Shown: in pieces, positions 10,132 to 35,043 of the stretch
Numbering within the stretch: the first letter of the stretch is position 1
How the letters are laid out: each line of letters opens with the position of its first letter
Source: a virus
Direction: 5' to 3' (one strand)
DNA length: 64,000 nucleotides
IMG/VR virus record: IMGVR_UViG_3300036760_000193
Coordinates: 91,395 to 155,394 of that record
The notes under the pieces: model-generated
Told to the model about the DNA's origin: nothing
Database searches by the model: none
The model's input: only the letters and a program-made list of their open reading frames with translations
Made by a program: the position numbers and the translations under genes

Positions 10132-11633
10132 TACCAACTCCCATCATCAAAAATCAAATCATCAACAGAGTTTACATCTTGCATTTTATAACGAGATTCA
10201 GTTTTATATATTTTTTCACGATCATTTGCATGAGACTCTAAAAACTTACAATTTTGATCGAAGATGTCTACTATATATGCTTTGACTTTATTATACGGTT
10301 TACGCAAAACACGACCGATTAATTGAAACGCATCTACTGATGATGCTGCGGCTTTTGCGTTTATCAAAACATCTAAATTTGGAACGTCGATGCCTTCACC
10401 AAAAATTGTTGTGCAAATAACGATCTTTCTTTTTCTCTCATCAAGTTCTTTCAAAACATCTTGACGCAATTGTGATTCAGATTCTCCGAAAACAAAAATT
10501 GCAGTCGGATCAAATTGCTGAAGCATCGCTTCTAAAATCTTCCCGTGTTCAACTTTCGTAACTGCGATCAAAACAGTTTTCCCTGCGGAAATCGCCTTCA
10601 AAGCCGCCTGTGCGATGACTTTATTTCGCTCTGTATTGTGAACTACTTCAATGTCATAAATATCTGGGTATCTCATTTTGTCTCTACCCTTTCTTGGATG
10701 CTTAAACAAAAACATTTGGACTAAAGGAGGTACAAGGTATCCAGCATCAATCAATTTGGATGCTGATATATCAACAATGATTTTACCTTGCCATGCTTCA
10801 ATCAATAAGTCAGCATTATCTTCTCTCCACGGGCTTGCGGACATGCCAATTTTATAAAACGCATTTTCTGCTTTTTTATGAATCATGGAAAACGAATCCG
10901 AGGGCACATGATGACACTCATCTGTAATTAAGCAGTTAACGCTCTTCACGTAATCCTGTACTTTCTGCTTTTCTGCCACGGTCTCTGGTGCATCTGGAAG
11001 GAATATGGTTTTGGCATTTCCATTCTCGTCTTTTTCTTCCCGTTCACGACCAAAATTGTAACAGGCTGCAATAGACTGAACCATCCCCACTGTAATAGGT
11101 TGAATGTCTTTGACTTCATCCCCGATACGACCAATGTGAATTCCCAAAGCTGCTTCCAAGCGAGAAATGATCTGGTAGAACACATCTGTCTTATGAATAA
11201 GTATGAGTGTAGGCACGTTTAACTTGGCTACAACCCCGATAAACACGTTTGTCTTACCGCCGCCTGTCCCTATCTTTACAATGCCTCTTTGCTTCTTAAT
11301 CGCTTCATTAATCGCTTCATTCTGGTAGTCTCGAAATACAATTCCTTTGACCTTCATTTCAGAACCAATCTGAACTTGCGGCCTATTATCTCTCAAATGA
11401 CAGGAAATGCCAGCCTTCTTAAGGGCGTCCACCACATAATGAATCAGCCCCGTTGGAAATGATTGACTATAGGGGCTGAACAACTTCACAGTACCAGCAA
11501 AACGATTATATTTTCTAGCATAGAAGGCTCCTGGTATTTCATAAGACGTTGCCATGTCAATGCTCTTAAGAATCTCGTCTGGAACCTCTCCTATAATCTT
11601 TGACCTAACATTGTTGATCTCAATTTCTATCAT
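10131..11633 (-). CDS. Superfamily 2 DNA helicase, UvsW/RadD-like
   Basis: A 500-residue helicase. A Q-type lead-in FRDYQNEAINEAI is followed by motif I KIGTGGGKT (about 120-128), motif II LITDECHH, motif III GMSASPWR, a late motif TTIFGEGIDVPNLD and motif VI IGRVLRKP. This set matches the UvsW/ComFA-like SF2 group that remodels branched DNA in recombination-dependent replication. Residues 1-95 are a specific N-terminal domain. The start overlaps the nucleotidyltransferase stop as ATGA, and a longer TTG start is less likely. A role with RecA in recombination and repair follows from the family and context. Confidence 0.87.
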   Translation of the reverse strand: MIEIEINNVRSKIIGEVPDEILKSIDMATSYEIPGAFYARKYNRFAGTVKLFSPYSQSFPTGLIHYVVDALKKAGISCHLRDNRPQVQIGSEMKVKGIVFRDYQNEAINEAIKKQRGIVKIGTGGGKTNVFIGVVAKLNVPTLILIHKTDVFYQIISRLEAALGIHIGRIGDEVKDIQPITVGMVQSIAACYNFGREREEKDENGNAKTIFLPDAPETVAEKQKVQDYVKSVNCLITDECHHVPSDSFSMIHKKAENAFYKIGMSASPWREDNADLLIEAWQGKIIVDISASKLIDAGYLVPPLVQMFLFKHPRKGRDKMRYPDIYDIEVVHNTERNKVIAQAALKAISAGKTVLIAVTKVEHGKILEAMLQQFDPTAIFVFGESESQLRQDVLKELDERKRKIVICTTIFGEGIDVPNLDVLINAKAAASSVDAFQLIGRVLRKPYNKVKAYIVDIFDQNCKFLESHANDREKIYKTESRYKMQDVNSVDDLIFDDGSW

Positions 11634-12391
11634 GATACTACTTTTTGATCGTCCCAATATCGTTCAAGAAGCTGCATTTGCAAATCATTGATTTTGTCCA
11701 AATCAGGCCCATATGGTAGTTGACTTTTTACATACGCCTCTTCTATCAAAGATTCAAACTGGTCAGCCTTGGATAGAACTTCTTCAATCTTGAACTTGCC
11801 AATTTTTATATCTCGAACGAGCCTATTATGAGTGATAGGAAACGACAAACGGCCATCAACCAAAAGTTCAAGACCTTCGGTCAACAGCCGTATCAAATGG
11901 CTTGCGAATTTTACATCGTAGCCGAATTTCTCGTAATACTCAACCCGTCCGCCTTCTGCTTGTTTGAAAAGCAGTTTTTGCTTTTGGGAATGAGCATAAC
12001 CAAGAAATCTATGTTTTACTTTTTTGCTTATAAAAAGGGGAGCCGCCATTAAAAGTTCTGCGCCGTATGGATCACAATTAATGATGTGCTTTTTGTCTGC
12101 AAATAGAATTTCAACGATATTGGGGTTATTCTCAGCGCATAGTTTGATGAATTTAGGAAGAGAATATAAAGTGCAGTCAGTATCGCTCTTGTCATTGCGA
12201 TGCCCTGAGTCAGAAGGATTGGTTCTGATCTCAACTTGTTCACACGTCTTCAACCCCATGACATACTCTTTGTCAGGGATGAATACCCCGACGTAATCTT
12301 TGTCGGAGTTTTCCGTTTCGGTTCCGTATAGATGTGAACCAACCATAACCTTTAGGATAAGGTTACGTTCAGCCATTTCTCTTTCTTTCAT
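11630..12391 (-). CDS. Predicted nucleotidyltransferase, RlaP-like
   Basis: The 253-residue product has the polymerase-beta-type signature near the N-terminus: VMVGSHLYGTETENSDKDYV (about 15-34), with the GS motif and the DxD pair in SDKDYVGVFI. This layout fits the RlaP/YcgL-like family seen in many phages and in some RNA-repair operons. The nucleotide and target are not known. The start at 12391 overlaps the aminopeptidase stop (ATGA) and has GAGG nearby; the frame remains open 135 bases further upstream, but that part is a shadow of the neighbour. No RNA ligase is visible next to it. Confidence 0.75.
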   Translation of the reverse strand: MKEREMAERNLILKVMVGSHLYGTETENSDKDYVGVFIPDKEYVMGLKTCEQVEIRTNPSDSGHRNDKSDTDCTLYSLPKFIKLCAENNPNIVEILFADKKHIINCDPYGAELLMAAPLFISKKVKHRFLGYAHSQKQKLLFKQAEGGRVEYYEKFGYDVKFASHLIRLLTEGLELLVDGRLSFPITHNRLVRDIKIGKFKIEEVLSKADQFESLIEEAYVKSQLPYGPDLDKINDLQMQLLERYWDDQKVVS

Positions 12392-13176
12392 AGCTCGTCG
12401 TCCTCTAAGTCTGGGTGTACAATTTCTTCGTCTCGTAATGTTAAAATCGTTGGGCCATCGTCTTCTATGGCGATCATGTGTTCCCAATGGCAAGCAGGTT
12501 TTCCATCTGCTGTCACTATCTTCCATTCATTAGGTTCCACGATCTTCCCGTCAGGGTTCCATGTCAAAATCGGTTCAATACAAATCACCATGCCAGACAC
12601 TAACTCTGCGCCAGGGTCTTTCACCTCGACATTTGGGATGGAAGGCTTCTCATGGATGTTTCTACCAATCCCATGACCAACATAGCGTTCGACGGCTCCA
12701 TATCCTTGCTTTTTAATGTATTTGGCAATGGCATTGGAAATGTCAGCCACATGATTTCCAGGATAGGCTTTCTCAATACCTTCCAATAGGGCGAGATACC
12801 CGTGGAGCACAAAAGCTTCCACATCGGGGTTGACCTTTCCTATTATATAGGTCTTGGCTGTATCACCACAAAAGCCGTCTAAACTGGCTCCTAAATCTAG
12901 GGTGACAATATCGCCGTCTTTCAAAATGTAATTGGAAGGGGTACAGTGTATCACTTCTTCGTTGACACAAGCACAAAGAGTGTTTGGGAAGTTTCGATAG
13001 CCTTTGAACACAGGGATGCCGCCATTGGCGCGAATAAATTCTTCCGCTTTGGCGTCAAGTTCAAGGGTGGATATTCCAGGACGGATTATCCCTCCCAACA
13101 TATTATGAGTCTCAGCACAGAGTTTGCCTACAGCTTTCATCTTGGCAAGCTCTTCGCCTGTCTTTATCGTAATAAT
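12388..13176 (-). CDS. map: Methionine aminopeptidase, type I, probable AUU start
   Basis: The enzyme removes initiator Met from new proteins. All five metal ligands are visible: Asp in TLDLGAS, Asp in CGDTAKTY, His in GHGIGR, Glu in CIEPIL and Glu in HWEHMIAI; the catalytic His is in VIHCTPS. The first ATG (13140) would cut off the family N-terminus. Extending the frame 12 codons adds ITIKTGEELAK, matching bacterial Map starts such as MIICKTPREIE, and places ATT at 13176-13174 seven bases after GGAGAGG. No ATG, GTG or TTG exists in that stretch. I therefore call a 262-residue product starting at AUU. It is unusual in a phage. Confidence 0.88.
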   Translation of the reverse strand: MITIKTGEELAKMKAVGKLCAETHNMLGGIIRPGISTLELDAKAEEFIRANGGIPVFKGYRNFPNTLCACVNEEVIHCTPSNYILKDGDIVTLDLGASLDGFCGDTAKTYIIGKVNPDVEAFVLHGYLALLEGIEKAYPGNHVADISNAIAKYIKKQGYGAVERYVGHGIGRNIHEKPSIPNVEVKDPGAELVSGMVICIEPILTWNPDGKIVEPNEWKIVTADGKPACHWEHMIAIEDDGPTILTLRDEEIVHPDLEDDEL

Positions 13177-13183
13177 GGCCTTA

Positions 13184-13190
13184 CCTCTCC
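13184..13190 (-). promoter_or_regulatory. Ribosome binding site deciding an AUU start
   Basis: GGAGAGG on the minus strand lies seven bases before ATT at 13176-13174 and 43 bases before the first ATG of the aminopeptidase frame. The spacing to ATT is ideal and the spacing to ATG is not. It supports initiation at AUU, a codon known for tight control in infC and pcnB of Escherichia coli. Confidence 0.7.
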
Positions 13191-13209: not shown

Positions 13210-13551
13210 TTACAGCGTTTTTAATGATTTTAGCAAATCCGTAACTGTTTCTACATTTCTAATGGTATTCTTAAGTTTATGAAAATCTGTTATTGCATCC
13301 ACATCTTCTACAAATTGTTGGCTCTCATTTGGTTCTTTGTAAAATTGAGCCGATCCAGGTTTCACTGGGTTCAAATAAAATTGTTTGTGTCCATCTGGAG
13401 CAGTTCTGAAATTTCCGTACTCGTCAAGAACGGCGATCACTTCATATCGTGCCCCACAAATAGTACAGTACGCCCATTGCCAATCTGGGGTCACTTTACC
13501 ACAATCTCTCAAGGAGTTTTGACAGGTTATACAAGGCATAGAATCAATCAT
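13210..13551 (-). CDS. Unknown zinc-ribbon-like protein
   Basis: A 113-residue product. Two Cys pairs, CITCQNSLRDC and YCTICGARYE (about 7-36), suggest a small zinc ribbon. The remainder is acidic and helical and ends TDLLKSLKTL. The frame is open further upstream, but the ATG at 13551 is chosen because AAGGAGAAACAA precedes it and it overlaps the upstream TGA as ATGA. A promoter-like site ends 25 bases ahead. The function is not recognised. Confidence 0.65.
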   Translation of the reverse strand: MIDSMPCITCQNSLRDCGKVTPDWQWAYCTICGARYEVIAVLDEYGNFRTAPDGHKQFYLNPVKPGSAQFYKEPNESQQFVEDVDAITDFHKLKNTIRNVETVTDLLKSLKTL

Positions 13552-13988
13552 TTGTTTCTCCTTCTCTTCGTATTCATTATACGTACTTTCTTTTTGTTTG
13601 TAAAGAGTTCTTTGAAAAACACCTTGGGAATACGCTTTTGTAACACCGCCCGAACAACCTTCTCCACCTTGCAACAAACCAACTCTTCTTTGTATTGTTG
13701 ATGCTTGTGCCCCTTGCTGTTGTTATAAATTCGCCACTTATTCCGTAGGGTTTGGTCTCTTTTTATAACTTTCTGCTTGGCGTTGTCAATTTGGTATTGA
13801 GTAAACAGGTCAAATACAAAATGTGTCACTTCATGATAAATGGTCATACATTGCTCAAATGGCGGATCGTCTAGATTTACGTCGATCCTGCAAGACTTTC
13901 GTCCATCTATTGCACTGTAGTATCCACTGTCTTCATCTTCTTTAGGTCCATTGAATCTACGAAAATACAGGTTGAGTTTGACTTTCAT
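13548..13988 (-). CDS. Small zinc metallopeptidase candidate (HEVTH)
   Basis: The 146-residue product has IYHEVTHFVFD (about 51-61), the HEXXH zinc-peptidase motif set in a hydrophobic helix. A possible third ligand, Glu, lies in KEELVCCKVEKVV about 45 residues later. The C-terminus is very basic (KRRRNK). It has no signal peptide. The gene follows the endolysin by 19 bases, with AAGGGGG upstream of the ATG. The substrate is unknown; a minimal SprT/IrrE-like or gluzincin fold is possible. HEXXH can occur by chance, but the flanking hydrophobic pattern fits. Confidence 0.65.
   Translation of the reverse strand: MKVKLNLYFRRFNGPKEDEDSGYYSAIDGRKSCRIDVNLDDPPFEQCMTIYHEVTHFVFDLFTQYQIDNAKQKVIKRDQTLRNKWRIYNNSKGHKHQQYKEELVCCKVEKVVRAVLQKRIPKVFFKELFTNKKKVRIMNTKRRRNK
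13576..13604 (-). promoter_or_regulatory. Sigma-70-like promoter inside a coding region
   Basis: TTTACA (13604-13599) is followed by 17 bases and TATAAT (13581-13576) on the minus strand, a five-of-six -35 match and a perfect -10. It lies within the 3' end of the HEVTH gene. The predicted start near 13569 gives an 18-base leader with a good SD ahead of the zinc-ribbon gene, and the site could also drive the aminopeptidase and replication genes downstream. Confidence 0.65.
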
Positions 13989-32453: not shown

Positions 32454-34322
32454 TTACAGCCCCTTAAATTGTTCAGCTAATGCCGCAGGTCTACTGTGAG
32501 CCTGGGCACGTCTTCGAGCACGTACACTTTGGGTCATGTTTCTTTCTATCGAAGAACGATATTTCACACCCATTGATTCATCCATTCCGGCTTCATAAGC
32601 TACTGTTCCTGGACTTTTATTTTTCGTAAGAGAATCAAACGTCATTATTTTTACAAATTTATCAAAATTATTTGCGAAACTTGAAAATTGAGGCATAAAT
32701 GTATCAACAAAATCTACTGCGAATGTACCCATTGCTGTAGCTAATTTATTCAACGGCGGAACCATCTGTTTTTGAGCCGCAAACCCTTCCTCTTGGGCTT
32801 TCTTAAATGCCGCAGCAGCTTTTCTAGCTTGCTCTTCTCTGGCTTTCATTTCTTTTTCCAAAGATTCTTTAGTTACTTTCTCCGTCTCTGTTCCAACGCT
32901 TGCTTTCCATTTTGTTAGAACCAATTGCATCTCTTTAGCGGCCATTACAGGGTTGTCCCCCATATTGATACCAAGAGTTTCCATTCCTTTTGCTATCTTG
33001 TTCATGGCTGATGAGTCTTTGCTTGTAAAAGTCCCGCCCATAATTTTATCAAAGAACTTCATTACATCATTGAATCCAAGCCCCTCTGCTAATTCGTCCT
33101 CAGAAGGCATACGCCCTTTTACAAAAGAAAGTATACCCGTAAGTTTTTCAATGGTCATTGAACCGAGAGCACTTGAAAAACTTGCAGCAAATTTTTGTGC
33201 ATCAGCGGCTGAAAATTTTGTGTCTCCTAATTTTCTAAGACTTATATATGTTGAAGTGAAAATTTTTCTTGCTTCGTCTGTATTGAATGTCAAATTACGC
33301 ATTTCAGCATTGATGTTAATTAAGCCATTGAAAGCATCTTTGAAATTTATACGAGCTTCCGTAGCTACATCCGAAGCACTCATAAACATCTTCCCGACTT
33401 CTTCCATAGACATGTTTTGCGTCTTTGAAGCGTTAGTTACCATGTCTGCTACAGTGCTGGCATCTATTCCAAACTTAGACATTGCATCTCTGATAGCTTT
33501 CCAAGCTTCAGGGCCACCTTCTTTCGTGAGTTCTCTCAACGCATCAGGAGCTTTAGATAGTTCTGAGACCAATTTATTAACATCATCGGCACTTTGCCCC
33601 AAAACTTGTCTATCTTGACCTAGAGCATGAAATGCTTTTTGCGCGGCCTCTACACTACGGGCAGATTCACCCAATCCCTGTCCACCTGCGCGTAATTGAG
33701 CTTGTAACTTAGTTAAATCAGCCAAACGTTCTGTGCCCAATTTGAAAACAGCTAGAAGACCAGTTACAATTCCAGACATAGCTCCCATTGCCGTACCCAA
33801 TTTAGGTAGAAGTTCAATGAACCCTGCCAATTTTCCGGCCATTCCACCCAAAACTCCGCTACCTTCTGAAGCCAATGCTCGTAAACTCTGTGCTGCGAGT
33901 TGTGGTTTGTATGCTGTTTCTACTTTTTGAACTTTTTCAGCGTGTTGTTTTTCTAGTCCTTCATGGATACCACGCGCTTCTCTCTTGGTTAACCCTTCCG
34001 TCTGAATTTTCTTTTGAAGCTTTAATTCTTCATCCAACATCTTAATCAGGTCTTTCTTCTCTTTCAAAAGAACAGTATGCTTATGACGTTCAGCGGTCTG
34101 GATGACTTTGAGATATTTTAGGTGGATTTCAGCGGCTTTCTTTTCGTTCTCTTCCACAATCATTGGAGAAATACGAAATACGCGCTTCATTTGGTCTTGT
34201 ATTTGGGCAACGTCAAAAACGTCCTCAAATCGAAGTTTATCTACTTGAAGTTTCGGTAGGGGTTGGTTCGCAGGATTTTGTCCTGGGTTCTGTGGCGGTT
34301 GATTTGGGTCGATTGGGGGCAT
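32454..34322 (-). CDS. Tail tape measure protein
   Basis: A 622-residue protein setting tail length. A proline-rich start (PPIDPNQPPQNPGQNP) is followed by long charged helices (about 60-150), hydrophobic segments at about 155-195 (LGTAMGAMSGIVTGLLAVF), a helical body with ALGQDRQVLGQSADDVNKL, and a basic Arg-rich end (RARRRAQAHSRP). It directly follows the frameshifted chaperone pair, which is diagnostic. It is short for a myovirus, implying a tail of roughly 90 nm at 1.5 angstrom per residue. Its ATG overlaps the chaperone stop as TAATG. Confidence 0.88.
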   Translation of the reverse strand: MPPIDPNQPPQNPGQNPANQPLPKLQVDKLRFEDVFDVAQIQDQMKRVFRISPMIVEENEKKAAEIHLKYLKVIQTAERHKHTVLLKEKKDLIKMLDEELKLQKKIQTEGLTKREARGIHEGLEKQHAEKVQKVETAYKPQLAAQSLRALASEGSGVLGGMAGKLAGFIELLPKLGTAMGAMSGIVTGLLAVFKLGTERLADLTKLQAQLRAGGQGLGESARSVEAAQKAFHALGQDRQVLGQSADDVNKLVSELSKAPDALRELTKEGGPEAWKAIRDAMSKFGIDASTVADMVTNASKTQNMSMEEVGKMFMSASDVATEARINFKDAFNGLININAEMRNLTFNTDEARKIFTSTYISLRKLGDTKFSAADAQKFAASFSSALGSMTIEKLTGILSFVKGRMPSEDELAEGLGFNDVMKFFDKIMGGTFTSKDSSAMNKIAKGMETLGINMGDNPVMAAKEMQLVLTKWKASVGTETEKVTKESLEKEMKAREEQARKAAAAFKKAQEEGFAAQKQMVPPLNKLATAMGTFAVDFVDTFMPQFSSFANNFDKFVKIMTFDSLTKNKSPGTVAYEAGMDESMGVKYRSSIERNMTQSVRARRRAQAHSRPAALAEQFKGL

Positions 34323-35043
34323 TAACTTACTACCTCTATGGTATCAAGATCGTCTTCTGGTTTACTGTATTCTTCTGGGTGTTGTACGCGCTTCTTAAGC
34401 TCAGAAGGTGAAATGCCCGACTTGCTATGGGCAAGTATCTCTTTCCAGATTTCGTCGTTATTTTCGTCAGAAACTGCTTCTGATACAGTCTTTTCGTCCC
34501 AAATTTCGGCTGCTGCTTGAGGATTTATGAACCTGCAAATAAGCTTGAACTTTTCTAGGTCTTCTTCTTGGTCTTTGTAATAATTGGCGATGGCCCACAT
34601 TACTTGTGATTCGGAGAGGGATTCAAAGGAACTGCTAAATGGAGAAATATTAAGGGCTTTTGCGGCTACCCATAACGTTCTGAAAGGGAGGTCGTTATCA
34701 GTTACTTTTTTTTTAACTCTTCCATGACTTTCGTCTGTTCTCCAGCCACATCAGAATAAGCGGTAAAGATTTCTGACAAAATATTATACTGCACATTGTC
34801 ATAGAGTTCTTTGGCTTGCTCTTTTGTAACTGATTCACCATTGACGGCATCTGTGGCCTGTATCAATACAGCAACTTGCAGATAAGTGAAACGTGCTGTT
34901 ACATTTTCAACGGCTTCTGGAACGGAAGAGAGAGCGATCTGTTGTTCAATTGTAGATAACGTATGCAATTTAACACGAAGCTCTTTGTTTACTTCTACTT
35001 CTTTTTCGATTCTACCCAATTGGGCGAGACTTTTCAAGTCCAT
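34322..35043 (-). CDS. Tail assembly chaperone, long form by -1 frameshift
   Basis: Slipping back one base on the A9 run (34714-34706) joins the 113-residue upstream frame to an open -1 frame that continues VTDNDLPFRTLWVAAKALNI and SESQVMWAIANYYKDQEEDL, ending at 34322. The fused product is about 240 residues. The -1 frame has no start with an SD (ATG at 34600 lacks one) and no stop between the slip and 34600. It corresponds to lambda gpG/gpGT and equivalents in myoviruses, which load the tape measure for tube assembly. The tape measure starts at its stop codon. Frameshifting is inferred, not shown. Confidence 0.8.
34702..35043 (-). CDS. Tail assembly chaperone, short form
   Basis: The 113-residue product (MDLKSLAQLGRIEKEVEVNK, ending VMEELKKK) comes from normal decoding past the A9 run to the TAA at 34704-34702. 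In the usual system most ribosomes make this form and a minority shift to the long form. The protein is helical and acidic-basic mixed, as expected. AAAGGAG precedes the ATG, at the end of a row of TAGCAA repeats. Confidence 0.8.
   Translation of the reverse strand: MDLKSLAQLGRIEKEVEVNKELRVKLHTLSTIEQQIALSSVPEAVENVTARFTYLQVAVLIQATDAVNGESVTKEQAKELYDNVQYNILSEIFTAYSDVAGEQTKVMEELKKK
34706..34714 (-). other. A9 slippery site for -1 frameshift
   Basis: On the minus strand TTAAAAAAAAAGTAAC holds nine A residues ending one base before the G of the last sense codon. An SD-like GGAAGAG lies just upstream and could stimulate slippage, as in dnaX. The zero frame ends in TAA at once and the -1 frame stays open to the tape measure. 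Confidence 0.78.

Follow-up and report, generated by a model that had tools for sequence, protein, structure and literature searches.

The locus examined here raises the question of where translation of a phage methionine aminopeptidase gene, map, begins when the part of its reading frame that matches the family N-terminus offers no canonical start codon. The gene lies in a window of 64,000 nucleotides (positions 91,395 to 155,394 of IMG/VR record IMGVR_UViG_3300036760_000193) that is part of a virus contig of 193,203 bases, and its features are collected in Table 1; single-number codon names give the position of the first base. The original prediction had put the gene at 12388-13176, with an ATT (13176-13174) as its apparent start and GGAGAGG seven bases before it, and all of these coordinates were right when checked against the sequence.

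Table 1. Features of the map locus, in window coordinates
Feature	Position	Strand	Remarks
map, type I methionine aminopeptidase	12388..13176	-	262 codons from ATT; PF00557, TIGR00500
ATT, proposed start codon	13174..13176	-	in the Met column of the homologues
GGAGAGG, Shine-Dalgarno (SD) sequence	13184..13190	-	7 nt (13183-13177) before ATT
ATG, first canonical in-frame start, rival	13138..13140	-	residue 13 from ATT
TAA stop of upstream gene, same frame as map	13210..13212	-	33 nt before ATT
Upstream gene, function not assigned; ORF from first TTG	13210..13677	-	no match in Pfam and PHROG searches
RlaP-like nucleotidyltransferase, downstream of map	11630..12391	-	PF10127 4.6e-24; PHROG 388

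Judged by its sequence, the map ORF is an intact type I methionine aminopeptidase gene. It matches PF00557 in a Pfam search (E=1.2e-45) and scores 263.3 bits against TIGR00500 (cut-off 171.35), covering positions 1-246 of the 247 in the profile. The metal-ligand and active-site residues H77, D94, D105, H168, H175, E201, and E232 are invariant in alignments of 20 and 26 members; among them, H77, D94, D105, H168, E201, and E232 make up the set of His, two Asp, His, and two Glu expected of the family. An AlphaFold2 model of the protein has a mean pLDDT of 95.6 and places helix 1 at residues 7-30. The gene is predicted to encode a functional phage enzyme of this type (Map).

The virus is a divergent contractile-tail phage that encodes a sheath, a UvsX-like RecA, a DnaB-like helicase, and a sigma factor. 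Elsewhere in the window, at 34322-35043 (minus strand), there is likely a tail-assembly-chaperone pair produced by a -1 frameshift: the ORF at 34702-35043 (minus strand) ends in GAA GAG TTA AAA AAA AAG TAA, and its -1 frame runs on as KKKVTDNDLPFRTLW... to 34322, the frameshift product ending just before a large ORF (32454-34322) that presumably encodes the tape measure protein. The RlaP-like nucleotidyltransferase that follows map is also found within ~6 kb of map in a related phage (G003). The gene upstream of map probably has its real start further in than the first TTG. A small ORF adjoining map (13548-13988, minus strand) carries a HEVTH metalloprotease-like motif and gave no hit in Pfam and PHROG searches; in G003 and in another relative, G049, an ORF beside map has a comparable HE-A-H motif (SprT-like).

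Read on the minus strand from TAA 13212-13210, the map frame gives IHEKRLRRGKA-IITIKTGEELAK-M. As originally predicted, this frame has no ATG, GTG, or TTG between the stop and ATG 13140, and a second ATT (13173-13171) directly follows the first. When a profile HMM built from 19 homologues is aligned to the frame, the match begins with model position 2 on the codon directly after ATT 13176, so that model position 1, the Met, corresponds to ATT 13176 itself. Scored against the family N-terminus, the 11 residues behind this ATT reach 14 bits, a value equalled only by the locus itself among the 69,625 open 12-codon windows of the 64 kb, which bears out the claim that the family N-terminus is encoded upstream of the first ATG. 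Codon usage over the 15 codons upstream of ATG 13140 is gene-like and among the highest of 184 predicted genes, and Lys5, which also lies upstream of ATG 13140, is invariant in the clade alignments. From these homology and compositional signals, the stretch upstream of ATG 13140 is coding. Map and its upstream neighbour share one reading frame, and readthrough of TAA 13212-13210 could in principle fuse Map to the upstream protein, or the gene could be a decaying remnant. We regard either as extremely improbable, as each homologue stands as a gene by itself with a start of its own, an SD lies between this TAA and ATT 13176, and the ORF is undamaged in other respects, keeping every metal ligand and a confidently modelled fold (pLDDT 95.6).

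The initiation signals also bear on the choice of codon. The SD duplex energy at ATT 13176 is -7.9 kcal/mol, which equals the median of the 182 predicted phage genes; an SD this good is found in 47% of the genes of the phage but at only 3% of 1,486 internal ATT codons. The anti-SD register of ATT 13176 is 3, the mode of the phage's ATG genes being 0-4, and the start region shows no unusual degree of structure (z 0.5). In three of the 182 genes, the SD of a near-cognate codon outdoes that of every canonical start within 25 codons. Of these, map alone (1/182) also has clearly positive upstream codon usage, and it alone has homology support as well.

The best explanation, which we consider probable from these signals, is that translation of map starts at AUU 13176, placed by the GGAGAGG SD; the original prediction that this ATT is the likely start is upheld by its place in the homologous Met column and by a normally spaced SD. 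Three other near-cognate codons (ATT 13173, ATA 13167, and AAG 13182) are within reach of the same SD, and one clade member, L210, also has AAG at -2, the alignment position of AAG 13182. However, the SD register would be 6 for ATT 13173, a less usual value (5/82 genes), and -3 for AAG 13182, which is wrong, as against 3 for ATT 13176, and the Met position of the HMM falls at 13176; use of one of these codons is very unlikely.

Initiation at ATG 13140, the first canonical start codon in frame, would give a Map shorter by 12 residues. A Map shortened in this way still scores 252 bits against TIGR00500, and a few phage Maps (L028, L035, L036, and L054) have somewhat late starts, at +4 to +6. However, the SD at ATG 13140 is weak (-4.5 kcal/mol), and the homologues speak for an earlier start. 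A canonical start falls between -12 and +6 of the ATT column in 65 of 66 Map homologues from IMG/VR, with ATG exactly at column 0 in 18 and at -1 in 16. ATG is present at +12 in 26 of the 66, in each case behind an earlier start, yet none of the 66 starts only at or beyond +12, so the case named beforehand as refuting the ATT start, homologues beginning at the internal ATG, did not arise. Beginning at ATG 13140 would cost the protein residues 1-12, the conserved Lys5 among them, and, because helix 1 spans residues 7-30 in the structural model, would cut away the first turns of that helix. The good SD and the 11 codons that match the family would then have no explanation. We consider this shorter product unlikely. 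Gene finders that accept only ATG, GTG, and TTG would call Map 12 residues short or misread its start.

Several records in the collection of phage Maps are probably bacterial contamination; the Map of one of them, L007, equals the bacterial MetAP chain 3tb5 in a PDB alignment. L044 and L075, taken up as further non-canonical Maps, were ruled out, upstream canonical starts being present in both.

Single-protein scans of viral contigs with Map, the helicase, and RlaP returned no close relatives, and a sheath scan of viral contigs gave weak matches only; genome contigs scanned with Map yielded only cellular Maps, at no more than 42% identity. Neither these scans nor the clade searches found a second copy or a relative closer than 46% identity. 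Phages of the same group were reached through sheath, RecA, and clade alignments. One tail sheath homologue (G009:C1:17639-19207) reads with one internal TAA. The Map encoded in the window is the deepest branch of a supported clade, sister to the Maps of related phages (support 100/96 and 99/97), and by this placement map belongs to the phage's own lineage. Within the clade, ATG is found at column 0 in L192, L194, and L196, at -1 in L193 and L195, and at -2 in L208 and L218. Conservation of ATT, which had been suggested as a check on the original prediction, was not found: syntenic phages start map with ATG at -2, -1, or 0. Since most clade Maps start with ATG, the ATT would be a lineage-specific loss of a canonical start and not a conserved device. 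In the favoured explanation, the ancestor had a start codon at the position of ATT 13176 or beside it, and this lineage lost it but preserved the SD and the coding sequence, the simplest route being one G-to-T change from ATG to ATT.

The ATT is known here from the sequence of one metagenomic contig, and a single base call carries the AUU claim. The T of the ATT might be an error in the consensus, or the assembled strain might be atypical of a population that has ATG, given that the two codons differ by one base, that three clade Maps (L192, L194, and L196) have ATG exactly at this column, and that the sequence comes from a single assembled contig. This conjecture is a principal rival, but it is an improbable one, as no other predicted gene of the contig presents a comparable anomaly and the expected ATG is also absent from two other clade Maps (L210 and L216).

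These two genes suggest that weak starts may recur in the clade. L210 (IMGVR_UViG_3300037184_000121, 1495-1580) comes from a contig of 107,602 bases that belongs to the same phage group by sheath and RecA. Its Map ORF is intact and has no ATG, GTG, or TTG before a TTG at +26, the start region reading TGA-GAT-AAG-ACA-ATC-ATA-ACC-CTG with ATC in the column of the window's ATT; it is the only orthologue that lacks any nearby canonical start. There is no good SD in L210, and the TAA of its upstream gene overlaps the expected start region, so a frameshift or reinitiation is possible there. L216 (IMGVR_UViG_3300032770_000571, 1435-1515) has ACG where its sister genes have ATG at -2, with a GTG at -20 that is still a possible alternative start, and L215 starts map with TTG. 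The upstream gene overlaps the start of map in L208 and L216, and the loss of ATG is accompanied by a change in a Tyr codon of the upstream gene from TAT to TAC (L216) or TAA (L210); in L216, the change to TAC at the end of the overlapping gene is what turns ATG into ACG.

Weak starts were counted in 2/11 clade Maps versus 1/66 others (p=0.05), or 1/11 versus 0/66 under a stricter definition (p=0.14), in a comparison that omits the window as the ascertained case and includes L209, a duplicate of L208, among the 11. The numbers are too small for an enrichment in the clade to be established. A more far-reaching proposal is that in this group of large phages map repeatedly loses its canonical start and persists on weak ones (the window's ATT, ATC or AAG in L210, ACG in L216, and TTG in L215), so that the dose of phage Map stays small and depends on host IF3, alongside a phage deformylase; this appears doubtful to us. 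If weak starts do recur in phage map genes, they would offer a testable case of start-codon dosage control in a phage.

For an AUU start at 13176, the SD would bring in the 30S subunit with AUU in the P site, where the initiator fMet-tRNA would begin translation, by analogy with other such starts. Because IF3 discriminates against codons like AUU, output well below that from AUG would be expected; by the same analogy, map output is likely reduced relative to AUG and would respond to host IF3. Translated from this codon, the protein would open with Met-Ile-Thr-Ile, and Met before Ile is retained under the specificity of methionine aminopeptidases. Map presumably removes Met from phage proteins jointly with the phage's own peptide deformylase. 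A gene for this enzyme was noted outside the window (L214; G000:C1:192485-192922, minus strand), and the relatives G003, G049, and G058 encode one as well, which equips these phages with the two enzymes needed for N-terminal Met excision. As the host has its own Map, a low dose of phage Map may suffice, and this tolerance may be the reason the weak start survives. The suggestion that an AUU start is a striking arrangement in an enzyme acting on initiator Met was not supported: AUU is still read by initiator fMet-tRNA, hence there is no obvious feedback of Map on its own start, and an IF3-like gene was sought in the phage and not found.

A literature search turned up no natural AUU start in phages, and we know of none; papers on phage Map yielded nothing informative. 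Homology-supported natural AUU starts are few, and the present case is well supported but isolated. The closest comparisons are the Maps of G003, G049, G052, G054, and G058 (L193-L196 and L192), which represent the same gene and clade at 39-46% identity; unlike the window's gene, these syntenic Maps have ATG as their start codon, at column 0 or -1. The Map of G077 (L210) shares an intact ORF and a near-cognate codon in the ATT column but, as described, differs from the window in its SD.

A weak start codon is a recognised if uncommon means of limiting how much protein is made. Natural AUU starts are used in bacteria (PMC5472188, PMC13009471), and phage map would add one more case to those already known elsewhere. 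As in other genes with AUU starts, a putatively functional SD lies at a working distance from the near-cognate ATT, and no canonical in-frame start is present at the homologous N-terminus; conservation of the non-canonical start in orthologues is not shared, the orthologues mostly having ATG. The Escherichia coli gene infC, which encodes IF3, has a natural AUU start, and IF3 discriminates against poor start codons such as this one (PMC5472188). However, infC forms an autoregulatory loop, whereas the product of phage map is not IF3, and the non-canonical start of infC is kept across bacteria (ATT in E. coli, ATC in Streptomyces, AUA in S. aureus), whereas the ATT of map is found in one phage. 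In S. aureus, cvfC1 (AUU) and ccpN (AUA) resemble map, as read here, in having a near-cognate start behind a good SD, and in a reporter the AUU of cvfC1 gives ~10% of AUG output (PMC13009471). Their SDs are extended and their odd starts are conserved in the genus, while the SD of map is average for the phage and its ATT is not conserved.
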